Below, in pieces: positions 17,239 through 27,308 of a stretch of DNA of 64,000 nucleotides. Each line of letters opens with the position of its first letter. Within the stretch, counting starts at the first letter, position 1. The translations under genes were made by a program, and so were the position numbers. Location of the stretch: contig CAMYJO010000006.1 of NCBI GenBank assembly GCA_947258755.1, forward strand, positions 1-64,000. The letters are read 5' to 3'. The notes under the pieces are model-generated. The model did not search any database, was not told the origin of the DNA, and saw nothing but the letters and a program-made list of their open reading frames with translations. Source of the DNA: an uncultured Gammaproteobacteria bacterium. GTDB taxonomy: Bacteria > Pseudomonadota > Gammaproteobacteria > JAADHQ01.

Positions 17239-17267
17239 GACTGTAGGGTATTACCACAGGAACTAAC

Positions 17268-18872
17268 ATCATCGATTACCTGCATATCATTATACAGACC
17301 GCCGGCGGGCTTGGCCTGTTCCTATTGGGTATGATCATCCTGACTGATGGACTCAGGGAACTGGTCGGTGACTCCATGCGCGCCGCGTTAATGCGTTTCA
17401 CCCATAGCCCTGTATCAGGGGTGATAACCGGCGCCACCAGTACTGCCATGCTACAGTCCTCGAGCGCAACGACTGTCACTGCCGTTGGTTTTGTCGGCGT
17501 CGGCGTTATCACGTTCCAGGAAGCGCTGGGCATTATCCTGGGTGCGAATATCGGCACAACCATGACCGGATGGTTCGTTGTCATGCTCGGCTTCAAACTG
17601 AAACTAGGGACTATTGTATTACCACTGGTGTTCCTCGGCGCTATATTAAGGCTATTTGGCTCTGGACGACTGGCAGCCAGTGGCTATGCAATCGCCGGCT
17701 TCGGACTTATTTTTGTCGGCATTACCATGATGCAACAGGGCATGAGTGGCCTGGAAAATTTCATTAGCCCCGAGCAGCTTCCCGGTGGCAGTATTGGCGG
17801 ACGCCTGTTACTGGTGGGTATCGGCATTGTCACCACCCTGATAACGCAATCGTCCAGTGCCGGTGTTGCCGCAACGGTCACTGCGCTGTATGCCGGCGCC
17901 ATCAATCTGGAGCAGGGGATCTCACTGATTATTGGAATGGATATTGGCACAACGGTAACGGCGGTGCTGGCCACTATTGGCGGCACGATCAATGCCAAGC
18001 GTACCGGCTATTCGCATGTTGCCTATAACCTGTTTGCCGCAAGCATCGCCCTACTCCTGATAAGCCCGTATATACTACTACTCGGCACCTTGTTTCCTGG
18101 CAACTCCCTGACTAACTCCGGCATTGCCTTGATCAGTTTTCACACCACCTATAATACCCTCGGCGTGCTCATCATATTACCTTTCTTTAACCGTATCACT
18201 CATATGATGGAGGTCCTGGTCCCCGAAAAACCACTGCTGTATACCCAGAAACTCGATAAGTCCCTGTATGAACAAACGGACCTCGCCCTGAATGTCGTCC
18301 AGTCTACCATCAGCGCCGAGTTGCTGGCACTACTGGCACACACCAACTATATCCTTGGCGAAACAACTACTGGATACCACATCGATCTAAATGAATTACA
18401 ACAAGCCTTGAGCAAGACCCGCGTCTATACCGACCGCATCCAGCCTAGCGCCAAAGAGGGGGCCGACTGGGAGCGATTGATTAGCATTATTCATTCACTT
18501 GACCATATTTATAGACTACTGGAGCGTTGCGAGGAAGACCAGGACCGTGCCAACACGGTAAAAGACACGCCTTTTCTGGGTGAGGCACGTACACGACTCA
18601 GCAGCATGATCACGGAAATAATGGATGATATAAAAAACAATCACTGGATAGAGGCATCACAACGCGCCAAAAAGGTTGAGACATGGATTAACAAGCATGT
18701 TGAAGACTTACGCGATAACATTATGATCAAGATCGCCAACAGTGACATTACTGCGCCTGAAGGCACACGTTATCTTGAGGCGTTGCGTTGGCTAGAGCGT
18801 GTCAGCAAGCACATCGCTCGCATCACATATCATTACAGTCGTGGACTGATGGCCAGCGGCATAGAAAACTAA
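17268..18872 (+). CDS. Na/Pi cotransporter family protein (probable ATC start)
   Basis: Sodium-dependent phosphate transporter of the NptA/YjbB type. Two repeated QSSSA-type motifs are seen: LQSSSATTVTAVG and TQSSSAGVAATVT, each with the reentrant loop. The C-terminal third is a PhoU-like helical domain (about residues 330-530). The longest reading with a standard start codon begins at TTG 17325, inside the first membrane segment and without a ribosome site. Upstream codons in the same frame (IIDYLHIIIQTAGGLGLFLLG) encode a full first helix back to ATC 17268, 5 nt after AGGAA; a TAG lies 8 codons further up. The stop overlaps the next ATG. Function is secure, the start codon is inference. Confidence 0.88.
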   Translation: MIDYLHIIIQTAGGLGLFLLGMIILTDGLRELVGDSMRAALMRFTHSPVSGVITGATSTAMLQSSSATTVTAVGFVGVGVITFQEALGIILGANIGTTMTGWFVVMLGFKLKLGTIVLPLVFLGAILRLFGSGRLAASGYAIAGFGLIFVGITMMQQGMSGLENFISPEQLPGGSIGGRLLLVGIGIVTTLITQSSSAGVAATVTALYAGAINLEQGISLIIGMDIGTTVTAVLATIGGTINAKRTGYSHVAYNLFAASIALLLISPYILLLGTLFPGNSLTNSGIALISFHTTYNTLGVLIILPFFNRITHMMEVLVPEKPLLYTQKLDKSLYEQTDLALNVVQSTISAELLALLAHTNYILGETTTGYHIDLNELQQALSKTRVYTDRIQPSAKEGADWERLISIIHSLDHIYRLLERCEEDQDRANTVKDTPFLGEARTRLSSMITEIMDDIKNNHWIEASQRAKKVETWINKHVEDLRDNIMIKIANSDITAPEGTRYLEALRWLERVSKHIARITYHYSRGLMASGIEN

Positions 18873-24647: not shown

Positions 24648-25784
<1,137 letters not shown>

Positions 25785-25866: not shown

Positions 25867-25911
25867 GTAGCCTGAAGCACCCACTAAGGTACGCCGTTGT
25901 GGGCAGGCTAC
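25867..25911. promoter_or_regulatory. hairpin between mreB and mreC
   Basis: GTAGCCTG (25867-25874) pairs with CAGGCTAC (25904-25911); inside, CCCAC (25880-25884) pairs with GTGGG (25899-25903). A 10-nt direct repeat GAAGCACCCA occurs in the left arm (25874-25883) and again at 25934-25943, ending in the mreC start. It may be an attenuator or stability element; no U-tract follows, so a plain terminator is unlikely. Confidence 0.6.
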
Positions 25912-25942
25912 TGATCATTAATGCAGGCGGGAGGAAGCACCC

Positions 25943-26839
25943 ATCAAGCTGTTATTTACCCAGGGACCTTCTACCACTGCCCGCGCAGTATTGCTGATCC
26001 TTGTTTCTATTGTTTTGATGACACTGGACCACCGACAACAGCACCTGAAAACCCTACGTGAAGGTCTGTCACTGCTGGTCGCACCCATTGAATTTCTAGT
26101 CGACCTGCCCGGGGGTATCGGCCGCTTAGTCTCCGATAGTCTCTCCAGCAGACAGCAACTGATGGAAAAAAATGCACGCCTGCACTCACAGAACATGTTA
26201 ATGCAGGCACGTTCGTTAAAGAATGCCGATCTCGAAAGCGAGAACCGTCGCCTGCGTGAACTACTGGGCTCGTCCGTCAAAGTTGCCGACCGAGTATTGA
26301 TTGCAGAGATCTATAAGGTTGATCTCGATCCGTATAAACACCTTATACGCATCAATAAAACGACGCGCCACGGCGTCTATATTGATCAGCCATTGCTCGA
26401 TGCTTATGGCATCATGGGACAGGTCATTGAAACCATGCCGACCTATGCAACGGTCAGATTGATCACTGATCCCGGGCACAGCATACCGATCCAGATCAGC
26501 CGCAATGGCTTACGAACAATTGCTACTGGTTCGGGCAAAATAAACCAGATTGATTTACCCTACTTACCAAATAACACCGATATCCAGGTCGGCGACCTAC
26601 TGGTAACTTCTGGCCTGGGCGGCGTCTACCCACCGGGGTATCCGGTGGCTCATGTCACAGAAATCGAACGCGCACCTGAACTTGAGTTTGCGCGCATCAA
26701 GGCCGAGCCCTACGCACAGCTGAATCGCAGTCGTGAGGTCTTACTGGTCTGGTCCGGAGATAAAATCAAACAAATGAAAACACGTCGAGCACAGCAACCA
26801 GAGCCTCAGGTTAAAGAGCATGAAAACACAGGCCCGTGA
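25943..26839 (+). CDS. mreC: rod-shape protein MreC (probable ATC start)
   Basis: Periplasmic scaffold linking MreB to PBP2 and RodA; about 298 aa. One transmembrane segment (about 13-30), a coiled coil (about residues 60-110) and two beta domains with GIMGQVIETMPTYATVRLITDP and GDLLVTSGLGGVYPPGYPVA. The usual first residues in E. coli are MKPIFSRGPS; here the frame reads IKLLFTQGPS with ATC at the M position, 8 nt after GGGAGG. No ATG or GTG is available, and the TTG at 25991 would lose the conserved start. It ends overlapping mreD. Confidence 0.93.
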   Translation: MKLLFTQGPSTTARAVLLILVSIVLMTLDHRQQHLKTLREGLSLLVAPIEFLVDLPGGIGRLVSDSLSSRQQLMEKNARLHSQNMLMQARSLKNADLESENRRLRELLGSSVKVADRVLIAEIYKVDLDPYKHLIRINKTTRHGVYIDQPLLDAYGIMGQVIETMPTYATVRLITDPGHSIPIQISRNGLRTIATGSGKINQIDLPYLPNNTDIQVGDLLVTSGLGGVYPPGYPVAHVTEIERAPELEFARIKAEPYAQLNRSREVLLVWSGDKIKQMKTRRAQQPEPQVKEHENTGP

Positions 26840-27308
26840 AGGTGGCTGGCTCATCCTGCTAACGTTTGTCGTAGCGATGATCCTGACCATAGCCCCCCTG
26901 CCTGAGCTGCTACGTCATTTCAGGCCTGAATGGTCGGCATTGGTCTTCATTTACTGGTGCATGGCACTGCCACATCGAATCGGTATCGGCATTGGCTGGA
27001 TGATTGGCCTGTTGCTGGATGTACTGACGGGGACATTACTGGGTCAACATGCCCTGGGCATGACCGTCATCGCCTTCATCACTATTAATCTACATCAACG
27101 CCTGCGCTTGTTTCCGTTATGGCAACAAGCCATCTTCGTTTGGATGGTGCTGAATTTGTACCAATTATTACTACTCTGGTTCTACGGTATCACCGGACAA
27201 GCTTCAAGGGGACCTGGCTTCTGGATATCCCCCATTGTCGGCATGATCCTGTGGCCAGGTGTATTCCTGATCTTACGAAGTCTCAGACGTCGATTCAAAG
27301 TAAGTTAG
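26820..27308 (+). CDS. mreD: rod-shape protein MreD
   Basis: Inner-membrane protein of 162 aa with five or six helices, including MILTIAPLPELL and WMIGLLLDVLTGTLLGQHALG, the family signature. Its ATG lies inside the 3' end of mreC (20-nt overlap), so translation is coupled. It helps MreC organise the elongasome. Confidence 0.93.
   Translation: MKTQAREGGWLILLTFVVAMILTIAPLPELLRHFRPEWSALVFIYWCMALPHRIGIGIGWMIGLLLDVLTGTLLGQHALGMTVIAFITINLHQRLRLFPLWQQAIFVWMVLNLYQLLLLWFYGITGQASRGPGFWISPIVGMILWPGVFLILRSLRRRFKVS

Follow-up and report, generated by a model that had tools for sequence, protein, structure and literature searches.

The mreC gene in the window, the whole 64,000-nucleotide stretch of gammaproteobacterial DNA analysed here, starts at an ATC codon, and relatives across much of the class carry ATC, ATT or ATA at the aligned position. 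Below, AUH stands for AUC, AUU or AUA, and canonical for ATG, GTG or TTG. The start of mreC at AUC is well supported by the sequence through its position, its conservation and the strong Shine-Dalgarno (SD) element before it. We consider it likely that mreC is translated from the AUC at 25943 and that the conserved AUH codon, which stands behind a strong SD, limits MreC synthesis; IF3 probably discriminates this codon, as it does those of infC and pcnB.

The mreC start and its reading frame

The window contains the gene order mreB-mreC-mreD, and all features described here lie on the + strand. mreB (24738..25784, ATG start) ends 158 nt before mreC (25943..26839), which comprises 298 codons from the ATC followed by TGA and overlaps at its end with mreD (26820..27308, ATG start). 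The protein was identified as MreC by profile matches to TIGR00219 (198.7 bits, cut-off 92.75) and PF04085 (137.4, cut-off 28). The original prediction had mreC beginning with ATC, in alignment with the E. coli initiator and 8 nt behind GGGAGG, and each of these points was borne out. The upstream end of the frame is a TAA stop at 25919..25921, and from there the frame reads TGC AGG CGG GAG GAA GCA CCC ATC AAG CTG TTA TTT, with no in-frame ATG, GTG or TTG between that stop and the conserved MreC N-terminus. The initiation codon occupies 25943..25945, the GGGAGG element occupies 25929..25934, and the spacer between them is AAGCACCC at 25935-25942. Strong SD elements are usual at mreC loci with AUH starts, and the ATC aligns with the ATC, ATT, ATA or ATG starts of other gammaproteobacteria, such that E. 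coli-type ATG loci begin at the same codon.

The window comes from a 49-contig draft assembly, which would leave room for a sequencing or assembly error, or for a recent mutation in one strain. The start codon is ATC in all four genomes of the window's genus, so that no ATG was seen when other strains were consulted, and AUH was found at 114 of 196 loci; an error or private mutation is therefore refuted. Frameshifting into mreC would draw on mreB or on an out-of-frame ATG at 25921-25923, which overlaps the in-frame stop. Against it, the Pseudomonas aeruginosa record has no ATG between the mreB stop and its ATC, and the mreB-mreC gap varies between 16 and 377 nt (its median is 76) in the 108 AUH loci for which the end of mreB was located, so we give frameshifting practically no weight. 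The same spread of gap lengths means that close translational coupling of mreC to mreB, which we also considered, is not general. In the window, a hairpin is predicted within this gap just 5′ of the SD (25867..25911), but it scored no better than shuffled sequences (z −0.64) and was absent from the relatives folded. Six mreC leaders were folded and showed no conserved RNA structure; five of them lay within one standard deviation of shuffles. A strong hairpin (z −3.4) does occur in the mreB-mreC gap of Thiohalomonas denitrificans (L014:2152-2237) and is absent from the other five folded leaders.

The first canonical codon 3′ of the ATC is TTG 25991, 16 codons into the gene. Initiation at such a downstream codon (this TTG in the window, GTG in P. 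aeruginosa), with the preceding segment untranslated, agrees with a mechanical list of open reading frames and with the annotation of the P. aeruginosa record CP123788.1. We consider a downstream start very improbable, because in the 94 AUH loci that aligned without a shift, codons 2 to 14 are conserved as protein with synonymous change, the SD is placed at the AUH codon, the ATG loci begin at the same aligned codon, and a later start would cut into the membrane helix. In these 94 loci, protein-level conservation with synonymous change begins at the AUH codon itself: Lys2 is conserved in 89%, Leu4 in 83%, Phe5 in 100%, Gly8 in 81%, Pro9 in 83% and Arg14 in 94%, and the invariant Phe5 is written TTT in 48 loci and TTC in 46. 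Codons −1 to −8 showed no conservation at the protein level, and they hold 46 in-frame stops versus none in codons 1-14.

The P. aeruginosa frame in CP123788.1 reads TAG GAG CGG ATC ATC AAA CCG CTA TTC TCC AAA GGC, and the annotated coding sequence begins at GTG 267, which is 16 codons 3′ of ATC 219 and falls inside the membrane helix. This entry (1-1131, L280) is labelled a P. aeruginosa plasmid, but its 1131 bases resemble a piece of the chromosome, since they cover nothing beyond the mreB end and the greater part of mreC. A structural study of P. aeruginosa MreC numbers the protein from the late annotated start (PMC8137920). The published numbering matches offset 16 only, among offsets 10-21, which indicates that the numbered protein begins within the helix. 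Annotated P. aeruginosa MreC thus appears to lack its first 16 residues, which comprise the cytoplasmic tail and a portion of the membrane helix. Their absence matters when constructs are designed to probe membrane anchoring or MreB contacts, and other MreC annotations may be truncated in the same way if the gene finder accepts ATG, GTG or TTG only.

Start codon use across the Gammaproteobacteria

Among the 15 named loci matched by the window's MreC, 12 have AUH at the aligned first codon (ATC in seven, ATT in three and ATA in two), down to about 49% protein identity. Thiohalomonas denitrificans is one of these 12, and Pectobacterium has ATG. In other named records, canonical starts were read for Aeromonas caviae (ATG), Acinetobacter baumannii (CP040041.1, GTG) and, as annotated, Legionella. 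In Legionella adelaidensis, the annotated mreC begins at a GTG and shares 23 bases with the end of mreB (L282:1171-1200).

In a class-level search, 252 of 276 genomes had an MreC match. The 130 better-scoring of these 252, in a ranking by a profile that drew mainly on AUH relatives, and one further genome (G002) gave 131 whole-genome loci, which together with the 15 named loci, five of them copies or near-copies, form a set of 146. Without selection by codon, 91 of the 146 loci lack any in-frame ATG, GTG or TTG over the interval that runs from the upstream stop through codon 5. The aligned first codon is AUH in 83 of these 91 (ATC 36, ATT 26, ATA 21), which is more than chance would give, and the other eight have AUH one to three codons upstream (six loci) or GTT (two loci). 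The two GTT loci make up family group f107, in which GTT AAA stands at the aligned start of both members. L145 has GGAGG before the GTT and no in-frame ATG, GTG or TTG, and L062 has ATC one codon earlier; a GUU start of mreC is possible in this pair.

Further start regions were read from 30 and then 60 loci of a phylum-level search. Before counting, we left out the five named copies or near-copies (L006, L007, L008, L017 and L020, all AUH), 17 of the 30 (two from another class, 14 near relatives with ATG, and L161 with ATC) and 18 of the 60 (ten from other classes and eight with unclear N-termini). In the 55 loci retained from these two sets the start was placed by the N-terminal motif; the start was shifted to a nearby in-frame canonical codon in 14 canonical loci, and to an AUH lying one to three codons 5′ of the aligned codon in seven others (L067, L075, L083, L109, L111, L139 and L147). 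The 12 loci from other classes of the phylum, which are probably alphaproteobacteria, have a different N-terminus with an in-frame canonical codon near it.

The resulting 196 loci comprise 114 with AUH (57 ATC, 34 ATT, 23 ATA), 79 with a canonical codon (66 ATG, 9 GTG, 4 TTG), two with GTT and one unclear, and as the sample leans to relatives of the window, 114 of 196 is no unbiased frequency for the class. The interval from the in-frame stop to the AUH codon is free of in-frame canonical codons in 98 of the 114 AUH loci, and 92 of the 114 are also free of them in codons 2-5. Sorted into 104 family groups, 58 are AUH throughout (many with one locus), 40 are canonical throughout and six are mixed or other; in group f143, ATC was read in all six loci (L138, L157, L160, L161, L203 and L205). 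The aligned motif IKxLFxxGPS is retained while the third base of the start codon varies among C, T and A. ATG is present throughout two clades, one of 22 loci that holds Pectobacterium, the other of 15 loci with other MreC N-termini, which we take to be Burkholderiales-like.

On the tree, AUH and canonical codons have switched at least 19 times. Parsimony assigned 6.7 changes from AUH to ATG, 6.7 from ATG to AUH and 29.7 among AUH codons, and the AUH to ATG changes are just modestly below the one third expected if change were blind; both this and the equal number of changes in the two directions count against the mechanism proposed below. The ancestral codon at an arbitrary midpoint root costs 57 steps if ATG and 58 if ATC or ATT. 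By these comparisons, we conclude that the weak start is specific to mreC, conserved across much of the class, and no quirk of the window's organism.

The AUH loci also share a strong SD. The mean SD duplex energy was −8.09 in the 114 AUH loci versus −3.87 in the 79 canonical loci (Mann-Whitney p 7e-17), a contrast that is confounded with ancestry; in seven tree-independent pairs the difference lay in the expected direction (on average 3.7 of the seven pairs for it vs 0.3 against it) and was not significant (median p 0.22). Within the same locus, the mreC SD was stronger than the mreB SD in 36 of 38 cases and stronger than the mreD SD in 27 of 38, where the mreD starts were sought among canonical codons only and the one with the best SD taken, so that mreD provides no test of codon choice. 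As a control, the expected mreB start was canonical in all 36 loci for which the mreB start region was covered (34 ATG, 2 TTG). The second mreC codon is AAA or AAG in 84 of the 94 unshifted AUH loci.

IF3, infC and a second ATC start

A gene for an Na/Pi cotransporter (PF02690; 17268..18872, + strand) also has an AUH start, at ATC 17268 or the adjacent ATC 17271, and the original prediction of a second ATC case within 9 kb therefore held. The frame is closed upstream by TAG (17244-17246), and no canonical start occurs from there to the conserved N-terminus of this protein. The cotransporter of a congener (genome G003, locus L262) starts with ATT, and AGGA precedes the start in both genomes. 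In relatives of 41% identity or below, canonical codons mostly lie near the N-terminus, and the non-canonical start was seen only within the genus. The AUH starts of mreC and the cotransporter are, on this comparison, separate cases, one class-wide and the other seen within the genus.

Two AUH genes within 9 kb could also mean that initiation is relaxed in this organism, for example through a variant IF3, and that ATC starts are frequent in it, as the original prediction had raised. Neither frequent ATC use nor a variant IF3 as a shared cause found support. Of 22 genes compared in the stretch common with G003, 18 have a canonical start in both genomes, mreC and the cotransporter are the two without one, and the start is not settled for the remaining two (at 18778 and 30301). 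The IF3 of the window's genome looks ordinary: residues 7-171 align with a solved IF-3 (8jsg_A, E 9.9e-66), a match judged on the alignment as a whole. With 58 family groups AUH throughout, a private change in this organism is unneeded, and relaxed initiation is a most unlikely explanation. The infC gene, which the original prediction had suggested inspecting, has an ATC start in the window's genome (L187, contig C11), behind AGAGGA, as would be expected for IF3 autoregulation and in keeping with its use of AUU or ATC elsewhere; the start was read by eye, and the remaining three genomes of the genus likewise have ATC in infC.

Proposed control of MreC synthesis and comparison with known AUH-start genes

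The conserved arrangement is an AUH codon behind a strong SD, usually followed by AAA or AAG. In the window, the usual initiator tRNA would presumably decode the AUC at 25943 as formyl-methionine, and the weak codon would hold MreC synthesis low relative to the operon neighbours. IF3 discriminates AUH codons, so MreC output should vary with the balance of IF3 and ribosomes, following it as infC does, and could be capped as for pcnB; mreC is thus probably under IF3 control, as we infer by analogy. The physiological reason may be the stoichiometry of MreC in the elongasome. For E. coli, in which mreC starts with ATG, ribosome-profiling figures quoted in PMC8137920 give MreC a value about double that of PBP2 or MreD. 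A canonical codon in 79 of the 196 loci, including those of Pectobacterium, Aeromonas, Acinetobacter and Legionella, indicates that IF3 control is not essential everywhere.

It is also conceivable that the AUH start is real and acts as a constitutive brake, where the weak codon and strong SD fix one low rate that is kept by ancestry, without regulation by IF3. The weak SD at canonical mreC and the strong SD at AUH mreC fit such a brake, as the product of codon and SD strength may be what is under selection, and the pcnB precedent is termed a translational limitation by an inefficient start codon (PMC9410913). AUG with a weak SD would, however, be a short step and is used in other clades, yet AUH has been retained in 58 of 104 family groups while its third base drifted, which argues indirectly against a constitutive brake; we regard it as a rather unlikely account, although one of some weight. 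A similar rate may be reached in two ways, by pairing AUG with a weak SD or AUH with a strong one, and the second way alone would bring in IF3 control.

More tentatively, we suggest that mreC, and with it elongasome assembly, could belong to a set of IF3-controlled AUH-start genes that spans much of the Gammaproteobacteria, with the enterobacterial clade that includes E. coli having ATG. If this is true, shifts of IF3 and ribosomes with growth would shift MreC synthesis and tie the translation machinery to elongation of the cell wall and to cell shape, and AUH mreC would have gone unseen in the model organism because its clade has ATG.

Few bacterial genes are documented with AUH starts. Among the papers listed by our literature searches, which lay largely outside subscription journals and included some that pair mreC with start-codon terms, none reported a non-canonical mreC start. 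A cell-shape gene with an AUH start over dozens of family groups, including Pseudomonas, offers a testable link from initiation fidelity to cell-wall growth. Such weak starts are overlooked by gene finders, and comparison of conserved starts could reveal more hidden non-AUG genes.

Among known cases, infC starts with AUU in E. coli and B. subtilis (PMC1805508) and with ATC in Streptomyces (PMC5472188), and in E. coli it is described as autoregulated by IF3. The mreC gene resembles infC in having an AUH start in distant bacteria, but infC encodes the discriminating factor itself, whereas mreC encodes an elongasome scaffold and has ATG in many lineages. The E. coli genes with AUU starts named in PMC9410913 are infC and pcnB only. 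Like mreC, pcnB does not encode an initiation factor, and it is limited by its inefficient AUU start (PMC9410913); it differs in that it is described for E. coli, whereas mreC has ATG in the Pectobacterium clade and AUH in many others. Streptomyces sigR combines a non-canonical start with a strong ribosome-binding site, as mreC does, and this combination sets operon stoichiometry (PMC5472188). The sigR codon is GTC in 32 of 34 genomes and GTT in two of 34 instead of AUH, the case concerns one actinobacterial genus, and repression of the GTC start by IF3 was shown there by experiment (PMC5472188). With E. coli-type mreC, the gene in the window shares the aligned start position and the motif, which reads MKPxFxRGPS in the E. 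coli type, but the latter has a canonical codon and, on average, a weaker SD. The sequence features of an AUH-start gene are present in mreC, with no upstream canonical alternative in the window and in 98 of 114 loci, a codon conserved between species and a strong SD. AUH starts are already known as a kind, and mreC is, as far as we have seen, new as a widely conserved member.
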